Shown: piece by piece, positions 4,174 to 19,834 of the stretch
Position numbering within the stretch: the stretch's first letter is position 1
How the letters are laid out: the number at the start of each line of letters is the position of its first letter
Origin: a virus
Length of the DNA: 23,038 nt
IMG/VR virus record: IMGVR_UViG_3300042344_000498
Location: 1-23,038 of that record
Reading direction: 5' to 3' (one strand)
Translations under genes and position numbers: made by a program
Notes under the pieces: generated by a model
Database searches by the model: none
What the model was told of the DNA's origin: nothing
The model's input: only the letters and a program-made list of their open reading frames with translations

Positions 4174-4348
4174 TTACGCCAACCCGCGTTGGCATTTTAA
4201 TGCAAAAGGCATCAATGCTCGAATTGATTGGGTCGGGGCTTGGGTGTACGAGTTTAAATGCGGAACTAGAATTGCCGCATATTCATACGAACATGCGTAT
4301 GAAAGACTTGTTGAGGTCACTCAAGAAAAAATTAAAGAACACCAGTAA
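4058..4348 (+). CDS. Hypothetical protein at the end of the left operon
   Basis: A 96-residue protein from the ATG at 4058. The C-terminal half is convincingly protein-like, with alternating strands and aromatic residues (ARIDWVGAWVYEFKCG, then YSYEHAYERLVEVTQ). The N-terminal 39 codons overlap the upstream gene, so the start could be an internal non-ATG codon such as the TTG at 4115. The 3' end overlaps the 3' end of the glycosyltransferase gene on the other strand by 17 bases. No domain is recognised. Confidence 0.5.
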   Translation: MTKQQLPEIDLPFSTPITSLEKSTDKDFRKIAFRRSPIDYANPRWHFNAKGINARIDWVGAWVYEFKCGTRIAAYSYEHAYERLVEVTQEKIKEHQ

Positions 4349-5477
4349 GCCGTTGACGACGGCTGATGTTAAAGCGGTCTGAGTAATCACGCTCAGTCCG
4401 CTTGTACCATCCGGGACCTTCCCAAACAGCGTGGATGTCTCTAAAAACGTGTTCGTATCGGCGGCCAACTACGTCCAACGAATAATTTCCTTTGGCCCAT
4501 TCCGCGCACGCCAAAGGTTGTAGTTTTTTGCGATTGCGCAAAGCCCACAAAAGCTGATCGTAAGTTTGGTATTTCCAACCTGTTGCACCGTGATCGACGG
4601 TTTCAGCAAAAGCTCCCCAAGGCGGGCAAATGACAGGCGTGCCAGAAAACATTGCTTCCACAGCAACGCCACCAAAAGGCTCAATGTACGTTGAGCCGAT
4701 AAAAAACGCGCTGGCTCCTGCCATCAGTTCTTTGCGTTTGTCAATTCCTGCGTAACCGACGTACTCAACATTATCAGGCCATTCAGTCAATCCCAGCTCT
4801 TCAGGCCCTCCTTGTCCCGCGATAACTAATTTAAGACCTAGCTCTTTGGTAGCCTGTAAAATTTGGTCTGTGCCCTTATGTCTGCCAATTCTTCCCAAGG
4901 CAAGAACGTAATCCGATTTGTGTTCTCGAAATTCAAATTCCGCAGGGTCAAAATAATTTGGAACAACAAACTCATACCAATCTTGATTGCAGCGGCGAAC
5001 TGAATCAATTCCTCGGTAAGCGTGGTACAATGCGTAAGATTCAAAAATTTTGAACCGAGCAAACGTATCTGGGTATCCAATTCCCGGCTCAACCACTAAA
5101 AGGTCTGGGTTTACATCGCACGCTTCTTTTACGCCCCATCCCCAAAACGCAAGAACAAAATCGCCCGGTTGTTTGCGCAGTTTAATTTCTTCGCCTGCGC
5201 GGGCATTGAAAGTTTTGTGTGCGTAATCTTCTCTGCTGTGTTTGAAAAAATTACGTTTCCAATTGTAATCGCCGTAGGCTTTTTCAAGAACAGAATCATC
5301 TGTTACCGCAACTTCTTCATTTGCATCAGTTTCAGATCGCTCGTGTCCGTAATGAATGCAATGGTGCCCGCGTTTTCTCATCATTTTGATGAACTTGCGG
5401 ACTTTTTGCGTAAAAGCGCACGCAACGTATTCTTCGTTTGTAATTGTGTGAGGAACACCAAGGCAATGAAATCTCAT
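4332..5477 (-). CDS. GT4-type (group 1) glycosyltransferase
   Basis: A 381-residue protein, a usual length for a two-domain GT-B glycosyltransferase. The C-terminal domain has the family's nucleotide-sugar binding features: ALGRIGRHKGTDQILQA (about 193-209), a loop with VIAGQGG, and EPFGGVAVEAMFSGTPVI, which holds the E-x7-E pair typical of GT4 retaining enzymes. It is the last gene of the virion and lysis block on the minus strand, downstream of the lysozyme. Phage glycosyltransferases can modify virion proteins, phage DNA or host surface glycans. The nearby Thr-rich collagen-like fibre makes virion glycosylation a reasonable guess, but the acceptor cannot be told from sequence. There is no signal peptide or membrane helix. 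Confidence 0.85.
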   Translation of the reverse strand: MRFHCLGVPHTITNEEYVACAFTQKVRKFIKMMRKRGHHCIHYGHERSETDANEEVAVTDDSVLEKAYGDYNWKRNFFKHSREDYAHKTFNARAGEEIKLRKQPGDFVLAFWGWGVKEACDVNPDLLVVEPGIGYPDTFARFKIFESYALYHAYRGIDSVRRCNQDWYEFVVPNYFDPAEFEFREHKSDYVLALGRIGRHKGTDQILQATKELGLKLVIAGQGGPEELGLTEWPDNVEYVGYAGIDKRKELMAGASAFFIGSTYIEPFGGVAVEAMFSGTPVICPPWGAFAETVDHGATGWKYQTYDQLLWALRNRKKLQPLACAEWAKGNYSLDVVGRRYEHVFRDIHAVWEGPGWYKRTERDYSDRFNISRRQRLTGVL

Positions 5478-5494
5478 AATATAATCAATTAATA

Positions 5495-6115
5495 TTAAAC
5501 AGTTTGTAGTCCTTTTTCAAATAGCACTGCTTCGTTTTCTCTTCGGTTTTTAAGGCCTTTATGGTTTGGCCAAATTCTTTTCATTGACCGAATGTAAGCT
5601 GGAATTTCTTGCAATCTGTTTTGCGTCAATGCTTCTCGGATTTGCCTCATTTCTCTTCGCCTGTCTTCCGAATCGCTTGAGTTTAAACTATTTCCTCGAT
5701 TAAAAACGATTGACAGCAAAGCGGTTGCGCAATCAGCAGGAATACTTTCTGCTTGCGGATAAATACGCAATGTCATTAAATAGTACCGAGGCAAAGTTGC
5801 TTGGCGAAAAACAGTTAAAGCGTCGTCCCATGAAATTGTAATGTCTGAAAGTGTTGGAACCAAAGCGTTTGCTGCGTCTTTTGTGATTCCGCAAGCTTTA
5901 ACTAATCGCTCGATGTTTTTTGCGTCGAGGATTTCGCCCCAGTCAGAACGCACATCGCCAGCCCTGCGATAGCCAATGTCATAACCGCAGCCAATTGTAA
6001 CTCCTGATGAAAACCCCGGCCACGTCGGCCTGTTAAGTCCGCGCCTAAGCCAATACGTTTTTCCGCCCGTTTCTTCGCGGATGATAAGATTAATTCCTTC
6101 ATCGCTTAAATTCAT
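5495..6115 (-). CDS. Endolysin, pesticin/T4-lysozyme-like muramidase
   Basis: A 206-residue peptidoglycan hydrolase. The N-terminus has IIREETGG (Glu15 as candidate acid), then GFSSGVTIGCGYDIGY with Thr40 and Asp46. The Glu...Thr-x5-Asp layout matches pesticin-type lysozymes, where Glu, Thr and Asp form the active site. The C-terminal half is helical with ALLSIVFNRGNSL and SMKRIWPNHKGLKNRRENEA, as in lysozyme folds of this group. There is no signal peptide, so export would depend on the adjacent holin. Its start overlaps the end of the lipoprotein gene (6112-6115, ATGA). Confidence 0.85.
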   Translation of the reverse strand: MNLSDEGINLIIREETGGKTYWLRRGLNRPTWPGFSSGVTIGCGYDIGYRRAGDVRSDWGEILDAKNIERLVKACGITKDAANALVPTLSDITISWDDALTVFRQATLPRYYLMTLRIYPQAESIPADCATALLSIVFNRGNSLNSSDSEDRRREMRQIREALTQNRLQEIPAYIRSMKRIWPNHKGLKNRRENEAVLFEKGLQTV

Positions 6116-8464: not shown

Positions 8465-11400
8465 CTAGAAATTTGGGTATGCACTTAAAGGAGGAGTAAA
8501 ATTTGCATAGGCATACCTTTGAACATTTGATGTGCAACGAAAATCATCAATATATACAGGCTGATAATTGTTTGAGGAGTAAAATATAAGCTTATTCCCG
8601 TCGGTAGAATTAACGTCATAAAAAGTTCCAAACACTCCATTGATCCAAAAAACAGTGGTTTGATATCCAGTTCTAAATGCAATGTGTGTCCATTGATTTA
8701 ATGGAATTGCACTGTTTCCACTAGCTGTTTCAGTGCCTGCAATGTTGGTCCATTGCGGGATGCGATTGTTTGTAATCTTAAACTTGTACCCAACATTTAA
8801 ATCATCATTTGAAATAAAGAAAACATCTTGATCTTGTTGTATGGACGAAATGTAGATCCAAAATTCAAACGTGATGTTTAGTATAGTGTTGACACTAAAC
8901 GGATTTCCACTATTTGGAGTGTACGTAAGGCGATTGTTTCCTTGTGGCAACAATAAAGACCCTGAGCCAAATTTAACAATTGAGGTGTTTATTGATGGAG
9001 ATCCAGTTGTTAAAAATGAATTTGCATTTTTATAATCAGCAAAAGAATCGTCAAAATGCAAAAGCAAGTTTACATTTGAAAAATACGGGTCTCCAAAAGC
9101 ACTAAATGAATTTAACTGTCCAAGCGTAGTATATGTGTTATTTGCTGTTTTTCTAATGTTAAAACTCCATGAAGATATTGATCCTGCAACTGGTGTTGGA
9201 ATTGTGTTTGTTGAGTTATTCCATGCAACAGGCTGTAAAGCGTCGTCAATATAAACCCCGTTTAGTTGGCGGGCTGTGCTTCCGTTTTGCACAGCAAGAT
9301 TAACTGTAATTCCTTGAGTGGTGCTTAAAAGCGAATTTAAAGTAGAAGATTCGCTCCCTCTTAAAAATAAAAAGTAATTTCCAGAGGCAGGCAAAGTATA
9401 AAACAAATTCTTTTGAGAAAGAACGTCAAAATAGACAAAGCTGGGGGCTCCAGAATTAACAAGTGTGACCGTGTCGTAAATGCTGCCGCTGGAAGCGGGA
9501 GAAGCAGTACTTGCAAGCGTCAAACGACCCAGCGCATCAACCGTTAGCACCGGTATAGCCGCACTGCTGCCATACGTCCCCGGCGTGACCCCGCTTGCAG
9601 GAAGCTGAGACGTGGTGATTGCGGGGATCTGCGAAGTGGCTAGTACCCCAGTAATCTGAGCCGAAGAAATGGCAATTAGCGAGCTTGTCGCTCCGGTCAG
9701 TTGCCCAAACTGGTTAACCGTAAAAGCTCCGACCGAATTCTCGCTTCCGTAAGTTCCTGCGGTGACGCCGGTTAAAGAAACGCCCGGTCCAGTTGCCCCG
9801 CTTGCGCCCACCTCACCTTGGATTCCTTGAGGCCCTTGAATGCCTTGAATGCCCTGTGATCCCGTAGCTCCGGTTGGTCCGGGCACGGTTGAAGGTTCGC
9901 CGGAAGGGCCTTGAGCCCCAACAGGGCCCGTGGCTCCACTTGAACCCACCTCGCCTTGAATTCCCTGAGGCCCTTGAATGCCTTGAATTCCCTGAATGCC
10001 TTGCGGTCCCGTAGCGCCAACCGGCCCTGCGTCTCCCTGAATGCCTTGCGGTCCCGTAGCGCCAACCGGCCCTGCGTCTCCTTGAATACCTTGAGTTCCC
10101 TGTGGCCCCGTCGCACCAACAGCTCCAGCTTGCCCTTGAATGCCTTGAATGCCCTGCGCGCCCTGAGCCCCGGTGGCCCCTGCCTGTCCACGCACGACAC
10201 GCACTGTAATAAGTGCCCCGACGGCAGGCGCGGTTGCAAATGTAATTGTTCCGCCGTTATCAGCGGTAATTGTGTACGCGCCATCTGTTGCGCCCGGATG
10301 CTGGATCGTGCCGTCAATGGTGACTAGGTACGACGCCGCCTCGGTGCCAAGGTAGCCGTTGATCGGGCTAAACTGTGTCGCCCCACTCCCGGCAAACTCG
10401 GTCAACACGCCAATTCCCGCTGCCCCCGGGCCCGTGGCTCCAATTGGGCCTTGCGGTCCAGTTGCCCCGCTTGGTCCGGGCACGGTCGAAGGTTCGCCCG
10501 CAGGGCCTTGAGCCCCAACAGGGCCGGTCGCCCCGCTTGCGCCCACCTCACCTTGGATTCCTTGAGGCCCTTGAATGCCTTGCGCCCCAGCGGGGCCCGT
10601 GGCCCCGCTTGGTCCTAGCTGCCCATAAAGCACTTGCGCAGCAGTTAAAATCACACTCGGGATTGCCGGTGCAGGTGCAGAGGCCGCTGCGTACTCAAGA
10701 GTGACCGCCGTATCGGTGGTCTGCCAATGAAGTTCAAGGTAATCGTTTGCTGCAAGCTTGAGGACGTAATTAACCGTGCCAATCTGCCGCCCCGGCGCAC
10801 CCCCGTGACTTTCTGTGATGCTCCACCGGGAGTCTGTGTCAGGGACGGTTGTGCCATTTTTTGAAAGCCAAATGCTGGCGTCGTGGATTTGATTGCTGCT
10901 GTTGTTCCACTGAACGCTGAAAGTGATCGAATAAACGCCAGCGACAGCAAACGTAACGCGGCTACCCGACACAATAGACACGCCCGCAGAATTAGGATCA
11001 GTGTTGTTGTAACTGATCGGGTATCCCGTGTTGATCGCCGCTGCGCTTTGATTGATTGTGCTCCAAAAAGATCCCCAGAAAGCGTCGGTTGAACTAATGC
11101 CCGCAGGGCCTTGAGCCCCAACAGGGCCGGTCGCGCCAGTTGCACCAGAAGGTCCGGCCTCACCAACTGGGCCAATCGGGCCCGTAGCGCCAGTCGCGCC
11201 AGAAGGTCCGGCCTCACCAACTGGGCCAACAGGGCCGGTCGCGCCAGTCGCGCCAGAAGGTCCGGCCTCACCAACTGGGCCAACAGGGCCGGTCGCGCCA
11301 GTTGCACCAGAGGGTCCGGTCTCGCCAATCGGGCCAACAGGGCCTGTAGCGCCAGTCGCACCAGAAGGTCCGGCCTCACCAACTGAGCCAACAGGGCCGG

Positions 11401-12025
11401 TCGCGCCAGTCGCGCCAGAGGGTCCGGTCTCGCCAATCGGGCCAACAGGGCCCGTAGCGCCAGTCGCACCAACGCCAGTTGCGCCAGTCGCGCCAGAAGG
11501 TCCGGTCTCACCAACTGAGCCAACAGGGCCGGTCGCGCCAGTCGCGCCAGAAGGTCCGGCCTCACCAACTGAGCCAACAGGGCCGGTCGCGCCAGTCGCG
11601 CCAGAAGGTCCGGTCTCGCCAATCGGGCCAACAGGGCCCGTAGCGCCAGTCGCGCCAGAAGGTCCGGCCTCACCAACTGGGCCAACAGGGCCGGTCGCGC
11701 CAGTCGCGCCAGAGGGTCCGGTCTCGCCAATCGGGCCAACAGGGCCCGTAGCGCCAGTCGCACCAACGCCAGTTGCGCCAGTCGCGCCAGAAGGTCCGGT
11801 CTCGCCAATCAGGCCAATCGGGCCCGTAGCGCCAGTTGCGCCAGCTCCGGACGGGCCAGTCGCGCCAGAAGGTCCGGCCTCACCAACTGGGCCAATCGGG
11901 CCCGTAGCGCCAGTCGCACCTTGTGCCCCAGCCGGGCCAACGGGCCCAACTGCCCCGCCGTTAGAACCGGGAACTCCCGTCAAAAGTTCTACAACAACAG
12001 TGTTTAAAGAATTGAAATCGGTCAT
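8465..12025 (-). CDS. Collagen-like tail fibre with C1q-like and LamG-like domains
   Basis: A 1186-residue protein and the largest gene here. Approximate layout: N-terminal cap (1-16); collagen-like Gly-x-y segment 1 (17-308) dominated by GAT, GPV and GPS triplets; a jellyroll domain resembling C1q/TNF heads (about 310-465, with [20 protein letters not shown]); collagen segment 2 (465-540); a strand-rich insert (540-610, [20 protein letters not shown]); collagen segment 3 with GIQGIQGPQ repeats (610-752); a linker with two copies of a GTYGS...LTVDA...GRLT module; a further strand-rich domain (848-985); and a LamG/concanavalin-like terminal domain (985-1186, [23 protein letters not shown]). 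The collagen parts should trimerise. The LamG end is a likely glycan-binding tip. The final third is visibly more A/T-rich than the collagen parts. Confidence 0.85.
11130..11950 (-). repeat. Degenerate 54-base tandem repeats encoding collagen triplets
   Basis: Thirteen GE[A/T]GPSG units encode an 18-residue block of the type [18 protein letters not shown]. Some units are identical at DNA level. Three irregular units contain a Gly-x-Gly break (one GAG and two GVG), as in natural collagen interruptions. Such repeats are prone to slippage and may vary in number. Confidence 0.8.
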
Positions 12026-15629: not shown

Positions 15630-17303
15630 TTAAAAAAGAATTGCTCCAGCAGCTTCGTACCCTTTTTGAGTGTTTGTTTTGTCGTATTTATTGTTAAGAC
15701 TTTTTAAAGCTTCAAGTTGCTGTTGCTGGATTGAAGTTTGTTTTCGAGTTTCGTTTAACTGCAAACTTCCAACATTCATTGCTCCTCCAGCAACAAATCC
15801 TCCTCCTCCAACTTTAGCCATTGATGAGACAAATTGCGCAACTCTAGCAACTTTAGGAAGCTCTTGGGCTCCGCCGCCTTCAGGAATAGCAAATTTTTTT
15901 AAAGTTTGATCAGTTGTTTTTTGCGAAGCTTTTCCAAGTTCTTCTATGTCTTTTGATACTGTTGAAATTGAACCTCCTAAGCTTTCAGTAAAACGAGGTC
16001 CCATTTCAGGTTGAGATAAATTTCCTTGTTTTCCTTTGTTAAAAATTTTAGCAAGAAATCTTACTGGGCCCATAAGATATTCTCCAATTGATTGAAACGC
16101 TTTTAACATTAAATTTATTGCGTCAAATAAAACGCCAACAACTCTTCCAAAAAGAGTTAAAATTACTCCAAAAGAAGCTATAGCTGGATTTAAAGTCCCT
16201 AAACCAAATGCTGTTAAAGCGTATCCAACAAAGCTTGCTAAATTTACAACAACACTTTTAACAACATTAACTGCTGCAATTAAAGCGTTTATAACTACAT
16301 TTCCAAGAAACCCAGCAAGATTTGCCCAAAAAGAAGCGTCAGTTAAAATATCTAAAGTTGCTGTTACTAAAGCAGCTATTGTGTTAACTAATGCATTTAC
16401 CGCTGCTCCAGCAATTTCAAACCATAATTTGTAAATTGCCGGTTTGTTGTCTGAAAAATTTTGGATAAAATTAGATGCTATGTTTCCAATTTGAGTTCCC
16501 AAATTTGCAAAATCAAAATTTTGCAATTTTTCAATAACTGGCAAAAATCCGGGAAGAACTCGCGCAGAAAAAGCTACCCAAAAGCCAGTTATTTTTTCTT
16601 TTGCAAGAGCTAAAACGCCAGCAAAATAATCTAAAAATCCTGCTGCTTGCTTGTAAACTTGAGCTTGCGTTTGCATTGACGCGGAAATTGCAACAAGCTT
16701 TTTTTCGTCAATAGAAAGCATTCTTCGCCCAGCTTTTCCAAAAATTTCCATTGAAAGAGCTGTACGCAAAGCATCGTTTTTTACCCCCGATAAAGCTTGG
16801 CGAATTTTCAAAAAATTAGCCATTCCGTCTCCGCTTTCGGCCATTTTTCGCATGTTCAAGCCAAGCAAAGAAAATGCACGCACGCCTTCACCTGTTCCAA
16901 ACATTGCGCCTTCAGCGAGACGTTTTTGCATTTGTCCGAATGCTTGCCCGGCCTCATCCGCGCCAATGCCAGTTTCTGCAAATGCTGCTCTCAAAACAAC
17001 AAGCTTGCTTACAGCAAGCCCGCTTTCTTCAGCCATGTTTTGTATGGCTTGTGCTGATTTTGCGGCTCCAACAATAGCCGTTCCCACTGCGCTTAAAGCT
17101 TTAGTAGCGCCCGAAACAATGCCAGTAAACGCGTTCCATACTGCGTTTACTACTACCATCCGTGCTGCTAATTGAGCCCAAGCAGAATTGTTTCTTGCAG
17201 CTTGACCGGCCATTGTTTGGCCAAGCTTGCCAAAAGCAGTAGTAGCTTGTGCCGCTCCAGCAGCAAAACCAGCAATGTTTAAACCAAGAACTGCTTGAAT
17301 CAT
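15630..17303 (-). CDS. Tape measure protein
   Basis: A 557-residue protein with the features of a short tape measure: an Ala/Gly-rich N-terminal helix (MIQAVLGLNIAGFAAGAAQA), a conserved-looking block with MAEESGLAVSKLVVLRAAF and GIGADEAGQAFGQMQKRLAEG (about 90-132), and several hydrophobic segments in the middle (FWANLAGFLGNVVINALIAA and others). At roughly 1.5 angstrom per residue the tail would be near 80 nm, the usual rule of thumb. It follows the tail chaperone pair and one unknown gene, the standard order. Start ATG overlaps the upstream stop (17300-17303). The DNA is A/T-rich. Confidence 0.85.
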   Translation of the reverse strand: MIQAVLGLNIAGFAAGAAQATTAFGKLGQTMAGQAARNNSAWAQLAARMVVVNAVWNAFTGIVSGATKALSAVGTAIVGAAKSAQAIQNMAEESGLAVSKLVVLRAAFAETGIGADEAGQAFGQMQKRLAEGAMFGTGEGVRAFSLLGLNMRKMAESGDGMANFLKIRQALSGVKNDALRTALSMEIFGKAGRRMLSIDEKKLVAISASMQTQAQVYKQAAGFLDYFAGVLALAKEKITGFWVAFSARVLPGFLPVIEKLQNFDFANLGTQIGNIASNFIQNFSDNKPAIYKLWFEIAGAAVNALVNTIAALVTATLDILTDASFWANLAGFLGNVVINALIAAVNVVKSVVVNLASFVGYALTAFGLGTLNPAIASFGVILTLFGRVVGVLFDAINLMLKAFQSIGEYLMGPVRFLAKIFNKGKQGNLSQPEMGPRFTESLGGSISTVSKDIEELGKASQKTTDQTLKKFAIPEGGGAQELPKVARVAQFVSSMAKVGGGGFVAGGAMNVGSLQLNETRKQTSIQQQQLEALKSLNNKYDKTNTQKGYEAAGAILF

Positions 17304-18103
17304 GGAATTTTTTGTTTCTTTTTTGCCCAGTCAGCAAGCTGGCGTTCCATTTTATTTGCTTGGGCGTTTAACGCAACAGAAATTCGGCGTTCAACTGAAG
17401 CACTCATTTTTGCGTTAGTGTTGTTTGTTGCCCGAAATCCGTAAAAAATATCAGTGTCAATAATTTGACAACTGCCAGCTAAATTGTGGCGATTAACCCA
17501 AGCCGGAATTGCAAGGCCAAATGTTTTTAACATTTGTTTCCAACCACTTGGAATGTATCCTTGCCTTGCAAATAATTCTTTTTCTAAAGCTAAAAACTGC
17601 GACCTATTAATGCGAAGTTGATCAACAGGTTTAATTTTTCGCTGGCGTTTATGTTCTGGCTGAATTGAAAGATACCAAGAAAGAGGTTCTCGGTCTTCAA
17701 GTTCCAGCATGCTAAAGGTTGAAGGTTTTGTTCCGCTTACGCCGCTTTTTGACATTGCCTTTGCAAGCGTGTTCCATTTTTTTTCCCGAATTTTAGCAAG
17801 CCTGCGTTCTTCGTTTTCATTTAACACAGTGATGACGTTTTCCATTGATTGCCGAATCCGAATTTGACCAGCAATTCTTCCTTGGCCCCAATTAATCCGG
17901 GAGCCCATCATCATTCCAGTTCCTTGCCCTGAATAAAGCGGCGGCGTGACGTTTAAAATGTTTCGAGCCACACCTCGAAATTGCACGTACATTGCTTTTT
18001 TTACCGATCGCTTTGACCCTTCTAAATATTTGGTCAATACTTCATAAAAGCGCGTTTCAGCTTTTTGAAATTGCTGTGTTGTAAAAATTTTCCATTTAGA
18101 CAT
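17300..18103 (-). CDS. Hypothetical basic tail protein
   Basis: A 267-residue basic protein (MSKWKIFTTQQFQKAETRFY start, SRINWGQGRIAGQIRIRQS in the first third, a Lys/Arg-rich C-terminus). It lies between the tail chaperone pair and the tape measure and overlaps both neighbours. There is no signal peptide or recognised domain. It may be a tail or connector component, but nothing firmer can be said. Confidence 0.55.
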   Translation of the reverse strand: MSKWKIFTTQQFQKAETRFYEVLTKYLEGSKRSVKKAMYVQFRGVARNILNVTPPLYSGQGTGMMMGSRINWGQGRIAGQIRIRQSMENVITVLNENEERRLAKIREKKWNTLAKAMSKSGVSGTKPSTFSMLELEDREPLSWYLSIQPEHKRQRKIKPVDQLRINRSQFLALEKELFARQGYIPSGWKQMLKTFGLAIPAWVNRHNLAGSCQIIDTDIFYGFRATNNTNAKMSASVERRISVALNAQANKMERQLADWAKKKQKIP

Positions 18104-18341
18104 CTTCGTCTTCGATGTTATAATTTTTACTTTGCAATCGATTTAATGCGTCTTCAAGGCTGCTTTGAATTTCAGCTTCGTCAACAGGCTTGACGGTCCA
18201 TTGTCCACTTGCCCACAGCAAGGCATGATAATATTGCATTGCCCTAACAAAAGGCAATTCCCAAAGAATAAAATGCTCTGACCACCCGGTTTCTTTGGCC
18301 AGACCAAACACGAAAGCCGCGTCTGAATCTGGCGCAATTAG
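18096..18341 (-). CDS. Downstream part of tail assembly chaperone, made by -1 frameshift
   Basis: This frame continues the upstream chaperone after a -1 shift at 18341-18347. It is read CTA-ATT-GCG with no stop to the end, adding 81 residues (LIAPDSDAAFVFGLAKETGW then SEHFILWELPFVRAMQYYHA). The KETGWSEHFILWELPFVRA motif resembles the T-domain of phage tail assembly chaperones, as in lambda G-T. A GTG at 18311 could give a separate 71-residue protein, but no Shine-Dalgarno is present and the homologous-looking sequence begins upstream of it, so the fused product (about 207 residues) is preferred. Confidence 0.75.
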   Translation of the reverse strand, partial: LIAPDSDAAFVFGLAKETGWSEHFILWELPFVRAMQYYHALLWASGQWTVKPVDEAEIQSSLEDALNRLQSKNYNIEDEDV

Positions 18342-18718
18342 TTTGGGGGCGCGTCTTTGTCGGAAGAGTTTGGCCGAGGAGCTACCGCAATCATTTGCGC
18401 TTTTACCATTTCGCCAATGCGCGTAATTTCATCGCAAAGCTGAGGCAACAAAGGCAAAGAAACAGAAAACATAAAAGCGTCAACTTTTTCTTTGAAACTT
18501 CCGTTTCTGACAGACAATATCACTTCTTGAAGAGGCGCGCTTTGCATCCACGCAAAAGCGTGAACTTGCCATTCAATTTCCGATTCTAGAAGTCCTTCAA
18601 TTTTGCCTTCAAAAATTGTAAGACCCATTTTGCTGGCGTACATTTTGCTGCCGCTTGTCCAAGGACGCAGCGTAAGCGAGCCAATTTGCCGATCACCTTC
18701 AATAAAAGCTTCGTTCAT
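18338..18718 (-). CDS. Tail assembly chaperone, upstream part (gpG-like)
   Basis: A 126-residue protein (MNEAFIEGDRQIGSLTLRPW start), close in length to gpG-type chaperones. It is placed between a small gene and the tape-measure module, as expected. The stop TAA (18338-18340) immediately follows the heptamer CCCAAAC in the frame C-CCA-AAC, so most ribosomes would end here and a fraction would slip. In phages both products assist tail assembly around the tape measure. Confidence 0.75.
   Translation of the reverse strand: MNEAFIEGDRQIGSLTLRPWTSGSKMYASKMGLTIFEGKIEGLLESEIEWQVHAFAWMQSAPLQEVILSVRNGSFKEKVDAFMFSVSLPLLPQLCDEITRIGEMVKAQMIAVAPRPNSSDKDAPPN
18341..18347 (-). promoter_or_regulatory. Probable -1 programmed frameshift heptamer CCCAAAC
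   Basis: On the mRNA the heptamer is CCCAAAC, read C-CCA-AAC, with UAA directly after. It fits the X-XXY-YYZ rule. Slipping back one base re-pairs the tRNAs on CCC and AAA and opens the downstream frame exactly. TCAGAC and GTCTGG can pair further 3' as a possible weak stimulatory stem. Confidence 0.75.
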
Positions 18719-18722
18719 ATAA

Positions 18723-19190
18723 TTAAGATCTAAGCTCTGCTAAAATTTTTGCTTTTTTTGCTTCCGGGCAATCCGCAGGAATAATTGCCGTTTTGTTGTT
18801 TCTTTGAATTAAAACTGCTGGTTTTTGTTTTTTAATCCAATCTCTAATCTTTTTTTCGTTTTCGCGATACGTTTTAAGATAAGCAATTGGATGATTTAAA
18901 TTTGATTGAATCCAATCTTCGCTCATCCATCTGCGCTTAAACTCTTGAAAATTAATTTTGTCTTTTACGTTTTCAGACAAATCAAATTCAATAGGGCGAG
19001 TGTCATCAATTTTCCAAGTGACTTGCCTTTTTTCAGTGCCGTCAGGCATCACCTGCACCGTGTCCAAATATTCTGCCCCTTTAACGCAACTGCCCCCGCA
19101 CGTCACCCACGCAAGAACCATGTCTGTGTGCGGGGACTGCAATGGGGGCAAATTGTCTTTTATAAATGTAATTTTTTGACCAACAAACAT
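18723..19190 (-). CDS. Hypothetical protein upstream of the tail chaperones
   Basis: A 155-residue protein. The first part is strand-like (QKITFIKDNLPPLQ, MVLAWVTCGGSCVKGAEYLD) and the second is a charged helix-rich region (FQEFKRRWMSEDWIQSNLNH). No domain is recognised. It lies in the tail module, after the tube-like genes. Its leader is A/T-rich with no Shine-Dalgarno. Confidence 0.55.
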   Translation of the reverse strand: MFVGQKITFIKDNLPPLQSPHTDMVLAWVTCGGSCVKGAEYLDTVQVMPDGTEKRQVTWKIDDTRPIEFDLSENVKDKINFQEFKRRWMSEDWIQSNLNHPIAYLKTYRENEKKIRDWIKKQKPAVLIQRNNKTAIIPADCPEAKKAKILAELRS

Positions 19191-19204: not shown

Positions 19205-19528
19205 TTAATTACAGCCTCCAGCAGTTGCTGAAGGAAACACAACTCCGCTGTATTCAAAACTTTCCCAGTCTTCGTTTGACTGCATGTTTTTTACGCTTGT
19301 AATAATAACTTGTCCGCCAATTCCTTGCGGAGCAGGGCCTCCGGAAATTCCTAAACTAGCAGGGGCGCTGCCTTTTCCTTTTACTGAAAAATTGTAAGAA
19401 GGATCATAATTCATGGCTTCACCAAAACTTCCGTCACTTGTAAGTAAAACTTTGCTTTCAACTTTTACTTCAACATCAACGGATTCAATGTAAGCGCCAG
19501 TAACTTTAGTAATTCCAAAAGATGCCAT
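19205..19528 (-). CDS. Small tail-tube-like protein, related to its neighbour
   Basis: A 107-residue strand-rich protein: MASFGITKVTGAYIESVDVE, then YNFSVKGKGSAPASLG, then VIITSVKNMQSNEDWESFEY. The order of motifs (GIT start, K-G-K-G strand, SN-E/D-DW/F segment) parallels the gene just upstream, suggesting an old tandem duplication. Its place between the tail terminator candidate and the chaperones is where the tail tube protein is expected. Tube identity is inferred from position and fold-like pattern. Confidence 0.5.
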   Translation of the reverse strand: MASFGITKVTGAYIESVDVEVKVESKVLLTSDGSFGEAMNYDPSYNFSVKGKGSAPASLGISGGPAPQGIGGQVIITSVKNMQSNEDWESFEYSGVVFPSATAGGCN

Positions 19529-19531
19529 AAA

Positions 19532-19834
19532 TTACTTGTAGTAAATTGCTTCAATTTCAGAAGTTGCAAAATCATCATTTGATTCACTGTATTTTGCGCT
19601 AACAACTGCTATTGCGCTTGTTTGCGCACCAGTATCATAATCAACTAATTCAGCAGCTCCTTTGCATTTAATATTTATTTTTCCAGTTCGCAAAGGTTTG
19701 TCAATTGCGGCGTAAGTGATTCCATCATCTCCTCGAATTGAAGCAACTTCGCATGTTTCTTCACAAGAAGCTTCTTGAATACATCCATTTGGCGGCGTTG
19801 CGTTAAAAGTGTCAGTAATTCCCCAAGCAGGCAT
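19532..19834 (-). CDS. Small tail-tube-like protein, related to its neighbour
   Basis: A 100-residue protein: MPAWGITDTFNATPPNGCIQ, a Cys-containing segment EASCEETCEVAS, then GKINIKCKGAAELVDYDTG and VVSAKYSESNDDFATSEIEA. It shares the motif order of the following gene, with three bases between them. One of the pair may be the tube subunit. The Cys residues in the first half are unusual for tail tubes and could form disulfides. Confidence 0.5.
   Translation of the reverse strand: MPAWGITDTFNATPPNGCIQEASCEETCEVASIRGDDGITYAAIDKPLRTGKINIKCKGAAELVDYDTGAQTSAIAVVSAKYSESNDDFATSEIEAIYYK

Follow-up and report, generated by a model that had tools for sequence, protein, structure and literature searches.

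A probable programmed -1 ribosomal frameshift joins a putative tail assembly chaperone to a start-less T domain in phages of Verrucomicrobia-type bacteria

A -1 slip of the ribosome very probably lets a phage of Verrucomicrobia-type bacteria, like dozens of uncultured relatives, produce an extended form of a tail-helper protein. In the window, by which we mean the whole 23,038-nt stretch of DNA analysed (IMG/VR virus record IMGVR_UViG_3300042344_000498), a programmed -1 ribosomal frameshift would fuse a lambda-like G tail assembly chaperone to a T domain, and gene comparisons leave us highly confident in this reading. Such a frameshift is expected here because G/GT frameshifting is textbook. 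Within the clade, heptamer, stop codon and hairpin pairs have repeatedly been exchanged, yet the layout has been kept.

The G–T junction and its conservation

All frameshift elements lie on the minus strand of the window:

18341–18718, minus strand: ORF G, putative short tail assembly chaperone in the 0 frame, 126 sense codons with the ATG at 18718; homologues in all relatives
18341–18347, minus strand: slippery heptamer C_CCA_AAC (CCCAAAC, in phase)
18338–18340, minus strand: 0-frame stop UAA, directly 3' of the heptamer; 0 or 1 codon past the heptamer in 84 of 84 relatives
18334–18340, minus strand: 7-nt spacer between heptamer and hairpin, stop codon included
18298–18333, minus strand: 3' hairpin, putative stimulator, with arms 18333–18325 and 18306–18298, indicated by covariation and fold energy
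18099–18341, minus strand: T domain in the -1 frame, 81 codons without a start of its own, stop at 18098–18096; better conserved than G

The 3' end of ORF G reads GAC-GCG-CCC-CCA-AAC-UAA. With its interval 18296–18360, the initial annotation took in the heptamer, the stop and the hairpin, and of T only the beginning. It had described CCCAAAC in the phase C-CCA-AAC, a UAA directly after it, a -1 frame open to its own stop and a fused product of about 207 residues. Each of these holds at the positions listed, and the predicted G–T fusion is 207 aa long with the junction ...APPN-LIAPDSDAAF... (junction peptide DAPPNLIAPDSDAAF...).

In the proposed mechanism, the majority of ribosomes would translate G and terminate at the UAA. 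A minority would be paused by the hairpin 7 nt downstream while CCA occupies the P site and AAC the A site, would slip one base back (to CCC AAA) and would continue with CUA AUU GCG CCA... to produce the 207-aa G–T protein. We infer the occurrence of slippage, its rate and the tandem P/A mechanism.

A scan with the T alignment led to seven Verrucomicrobia genomes (including Chthoniobacter, Pedosphaera, Verrucomicrobium and Haloferula) and to 106 relatives on viral contigs, 80 of which were retained; 85 loci from IMG/VR and Verrucomicrobia genomes were examined. The initial annotation had read the junction as a G/GT frameshift to be checked in related phages by the recurrence of the heptamer with both frames, against a conserved start codon in the second frame. 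An in-phase heptamer was kept at the G/T junction, exactly where T homology begins, in 84 of the 85 loci, the remaining one being a natural in-frame G–T fusion, and no conserved T-frame start codon was found among the 85. The relatives' heptamers, the T homology and the covarying 3' hairpin described below thus support that reading. Across the sequences compared, the heptamer, its phase, the stop, the covarying hairpin and the start-less T frame are conserved together.

The heptamer was CCCAAAC in 34 loci, GGGAAAC in 30, GGGAAAG in 13 and AAAAAAC in 7, so that the X base differs between relatives (CCC, GGG, AAA) and slipperiness is kept. The stop followed immediately in 65 loci and one codon on in 19 (n = 84); for example, the junction reads CCC-CCA-AAC-UAG in relatives L008 and L010 and CCG-GGA-AAC-UAA in L009. 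A tree of 44 representatives, reconstructed with the signal columns left out and having many weak branches, needs at least eight heptamer changes, each made up of several linked base changes, and at least 11 changes in stop codon identity. An in-phase XXX(AAA/TTT)N heptamer with an immediate stop occurred at the end of 37 of 1081 ORFs of at least 100 codons in the 44 representative loci; 36 of the 37 were the G gene and one was another ORF. The combination is found at the G gene more often than by chance.

Three other origins for the two frames were weighed. An indel introduced by sequencing error, or a broken gene, can produce a frame change between two ORFs, but a second contig (L001), 99.9% identical to the window over 12.3 kb, has zero differences in the G/T region, and dozens of diverged relatives are built alike; this reading is already refuted. 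Polymerase slippage on a homopolymer run, giving mixed mRNAs, would suit the six-A run of the AAAAAAC members and the five-C run in the window. The GGGAAAC members keep the same arrangement with runs of three only, and slippage of this kind does not call for a hairpin at ribosomal spacing, so that we regard it as extremely improbable.

Separate production of T by re-initiation after termination of G could use a GTG that forms T codon 11 both in the window and in L014. Elsewhere in the family this codon varies (GTC, GCC, ATT and others), many members lack ATG, GTG or TTG among the first 15 T codons, and T residues L1, P4 and A8 are conserved 5' of codon 11. T homology itself starts with the first codon past the heptamer, 5' of any start codon. 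Re-initiation would also leave unexplained both the heptamer and the natural in-frame G–T fusion, which occurs, without a heptamer, in two copies in one MAG (G003; L095 at 1120–1770, and L120). Sequence comparison has thus largely refuted this explanation, and we consider it very unlikely.

The downstream stem of L095 is broken at several pairs, as judged by eye from the sequence. The L095/L120 lineage would be able to make the long product only, barring another device, and the existence of such an in-frame-only lineage means that not every family member sets a G:GT balance by slippage.

The 3' hairpin and the adjacent stop codon

The programmed frameshift is further indicated by a hairpin that starts 7 nt 3' of the heptamer and has a 9-bp stem. 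The spacer falls inside the 5–8 nt range past the heptamer at which 3' structures stand in hairpin-stimulated -1 signals (PMC4066793). In the window, the conserved stem pairs GCCAGAUU (18333–18326) with GGUCUGGC (18305–18298), forming eight of the nine pairs with the innermost absent, and the single-strand fold has an energy of -25.1 kcal/mol (z -3.2). In the alignment of relatives, 93.4% of stem cells were paired, the covariation score of the stem was 0.329 vs 0.165, and RNAalifold recovered the same stem unprompted. Changes on both sides of a pair were found in 36 cells, against a shuffled mean of 9.3 and at most 12 with the partners slid, although shuffles overstate the significance of the hairpin because the sequences are related.

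In the strongest pair, the third base of codon 13 is matched with the middle base of T codon 5; on the tree this pair shows at least 13 changes of state. Among the 34 representatives with Thr at codon 13, the third base was the Watson–Crick partner in 29, vs 9.3 expected. In these sequences a synonymous Thr base tracks an amino-acid-changing base, for which protein selection is no explanation. The initial annotation had suggested a stem TCAGAC/GTCTGG at this place. The presence of a hairpin is borne out by the covariation; the exact pairing is not, since TCAGAC/GTCTGG shares the 3' arm but pairs it in a shifted register, and the covarying register is preferred.

The position of the stop codon also bears marks of selection. 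The -1-frame codon past AAC is Leu, and an immediate 0-frame stop therefore needs CUA, or CUG followed by A. CUA, which makes up about 7% of Leu codons across these loci and is thus rare, stood at T codon 1 in 24 of the 42 Leu-bearing representatives, vs 2.9 expected (relatedness uncorrected). CUG at this codon never had G next among the representatives, and where codon 1 lacked a stop, codon 2 supplied it. Because the rare CUA is enriched at T codon 1, stop position appears selected; it appears to be the position of the stop, rather than its identity, that is conserved.

In E. coli, AAR codons shift well and AAC poorly, the best heptamers being CCCAAAG, GGGAAAG and AAAAAAG (PMC4066793). Slippage here could therefore be infrequent, barring compensation by the hairpin, the stop or host tRNAs. 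As far as sequences tell, the family mostly uses heptamers expected to be weak and keeps the hairpin and a near stop alongside them. Queuosine loss in the hosts was considered as a cause of AAC use but is not supported, tRNA-guanine transglycosylase being present in seven of seven host genomes.

The adjacent stop could be an active stimulator, with slippage mainly post-translocation, when AAC occupies the P site and the stop waits in the A site for release factor; the A-site monitoring that makes AAC heptamers poor in bacteria would then be avoided. We consider this unlikely, although several observations agree with it: the short distance of the stop (at most one codon in 84 of 84), the CUA enrichment with codon 2 backing up codon 1, and the precedent of pea enation mosaic virus, in which high frameshifting depends on a stop 3 nt past the site (PMC5009743). 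The initial annotation had already suggested that a stop directly after the site could raise slippage through pausing, and the selection on stop position lends this idea indirect support.

Divergent homologues in 388 Verrucomicrobiota genomes, which have in-phase heptamers too (L102–L104, L108–L110, L114, L115), bear on the same question. Where the heptamer ends in AAC, the stop is almost always at most one codon away, also in the distant L108 and L121 (from the host genome of L096, GGGAAAC-UGA), whereas AAA/AAG members often have it farther off: the stop lies 10 codons on in L099 (read from the sequence), 9 in L102 and L104, 23 in L115 and 38 in L114. Exceptions break the pattern in both directions, since L103 and L110 are AAC members with the stop 5 and 6 codons on, and L109 is an AAG member with an adjacent stop. 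In addition, the 7-nt spacer suits ordinary P/A slippage, competition from release factor could instead lower fusion, and selection on the stop may serve the C-terminus of G. Among the divergent loci, downstream folding was strong in the three AAC members (-20 to -27 kcal/mol) and weak in the three AAG members (-11 to -16 kcal/mol), numbers too small for statistics.

A broader proposal, that the adjacent stop and the hairpin jointly enable AAC heptamers on bacterial ribosomes for one group of Verrucomicrobia phages, strikes us as rather doubtful. Competition between release factor and slippage, with the stop in the A site, would then set the G:GT ratio, unlike the AAG-driven A-site slippage of lambda.

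Selection of the adjacent stop may instead serve only to define the C-terminus of G, giving a compact P-(P/G/K)-N end and preventing a 0-frame tail, a reading that we would place a little below an even call. G ends in P-x-N in almost all members, and the hairpin-less GGGAAAG clade still keeps near-adjacent stops; the looser stops of AAA/AAG members are not explained by this reading by itself. Both views of the stop, as stimulator and as C-terminus, are compatible with the main explanation, a programmed -1 frameshift.

The GGGAAAG clade (13 loci) has no stem, has its stop one codon past the heptamer, and represents a single evolutionary event. A GAGGA lies about 10 nt 5' of GGGAAAG in L027 and L030, with 11 near copies, in this hairpin-less clade and at a dnaX-like Shine–Dalgarno (SD) spacing. 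The presence of an SD-like element at normal -1 signal spacing in this clade is only suggestive; across the family the upstream SD-like element is weak on average, and it is absent in the window (-0.2 kcal/mol).

Gene context and likely function

The window carries a structural operon on the minus strand comprising an S49 protease, a major head protein (identified by phrog_283), small connector and tube-like genes, a 155-aa gene, G, T, a 267-aa gene and the tape measure gene. The contig L001 adds an upstream gpA-type terminase and a lambda-family portal gene, and relatives L008–L010 are syntenic with the window. G/T sits between the head/connector genes and the tape measure gene, with the following neighbours:

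18723–19190, minus strand: 155-aa gene directly upstream of G, conserved and syntenic; weak phrog_21634 match (E 0.009)
17300–18103, minus strand: 267-aa gene between T and the tape measure gene, its ATG overlapping the end of T
15630–17303, minus strand: tape measure protein, matching phrog_8462 tail length tape measure (E 8.5e-7)

Since its start lies within the last part of T, the 267-aa gene may need frameshifted ribosomes for its translation.

Pfam and PHROG scans of G and T gave zero matches to tail chaperone families, a PDB sequence search with the G profile gave nothing useful, and Foldseek against PDB gave no significant matches. The AlphaFold model of G (pLDDT 82) is helical with an N-terminal beta hairpin. 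With VIA-align, the HK97 chaperone 2ob9 was matched at Z 2.8 and rmsd 5.4 over 82 residues, which we do not take as proof because unrelated chains score alike. Weak viral fold matches include several annotated tail chaperones (Foldseek probability at most 0.47), and the viral fold matches of T are weak. Identity as a tail chaperone is accordingly supported by gene order and weak fold similarity, with no family match. Gene order and the G/T layout likewise support a function like that of G/GT, kinship with lambda G aside. If lambda is a guide, G would engage the tape measure protein and the T domain would bring in tube subunits. Among 50,697 GenBank phage records, G, T and the capsid protein all had no match. 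The best-covering terminase relative, Verrucomicrobia phage P8625, matched neither T nor G, and the end of its gp16 has no in-phase heptamer. The junction layout offers an annotation rule for GT fusions in phage contigs in which neither G nor T matches a family and T would otherwise be overlooked.

Other genes in the window were recorded as side observations. Two adjacent small genes (100 and 107 aa) lie upstream of G at 19205–19834, and the homologue of the first in L008 and L010 also matches the region of the second (E 4e-4); the two may be tandem paralogues, perhaps two tube proteins. A 1186-aa protein (8465–12025) has long collagen-like Gly-X-Y repeats, a stretch that matches itself in many registers, and a C-terminal concanavalin-like domain; it is probably a tail fibre. 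A glycosyl transferase group 1 gene (4332–5477) adjoins a lysozyme-like gene (5495–6115; weak Pfam match, below the cut-off). On the plus strand, a PDDEXK nuclease (DUF3799; 60–923) is followed by a RecT-like gene (948–1937; weak match), forming a recombination pair.

Comparison with known frameshift systems

The arrangement shares with lambda G/GT and its homologues (Xu, Hendrix and Duda 2004, cited in PMC5009743) the place before the tape measure gene, a short 0-frame ORF, a start-less T domain in the -1 frame, and an X_XXY_YYZ heptamer near the end of G. The lambda proteins gpG and gpGT both bind the tape measure protein, and tube subunits are recruited by the T part (PMC5009743). Unlike the lambda-like systems, the heptamers here mostly end in AAC, not AAG, and are accompanied by a conserved covarying hairpin; the stop is 0–1 codon off, vs a mean of 26 nt in SEA-PHAGES and 36 nt in the Xu set (PMC10885494). 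The family also has no detectable sequence kinship to known chaperone families.

A shift site close to a stop is likewise found in pea enation mosaic virus (G_GAU_UUU_UGG_UAG), where the stop lies one codon past the site and its change to a sense codon strongly lowers frameshifting (PMC5009743). That system differs in being a plant RNA virus using a eukaryotic ribosome and another heptamer, and the effect of the stop was measured there, whereas here the evidence is of selection on its position. Bacterial dnaX variants with a stop directly past the shift site (PMC5009743) make a short product by termination and a longer one by -1 shifting, as would be the case here. However, dnaX is a cellular gene, and in E. 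coli it has an SD-like element plus a hairpin; the window has no clear SD-like element. Bacterial insertion sequences with A_AAA_AAC provide a proven bacterial AAC heptamer of the kind used here (PMC4066793), although an established stimulator is absent from that insertion-sequence cluster (PMC4066793) and here the hairpin is conserved.

A literature search for stops adjacent to bacterial -1 sites gave none beyond the review PMC5009743. The layout of AAC, adjacent stop and hairpin looks like a clade-specific variant in Verrucomicrobia phages, undescribed in the literature searched. The clade offers natural swaps, namely AAC with a hairpin and a near stop, AAG without a hairpin, and an in-frame fusion with neither, which should be useful for studying what makes AAC heptamers poor on bacterial ribosomes and whether -1 slippage in bacteria can be stimulated by a stop.
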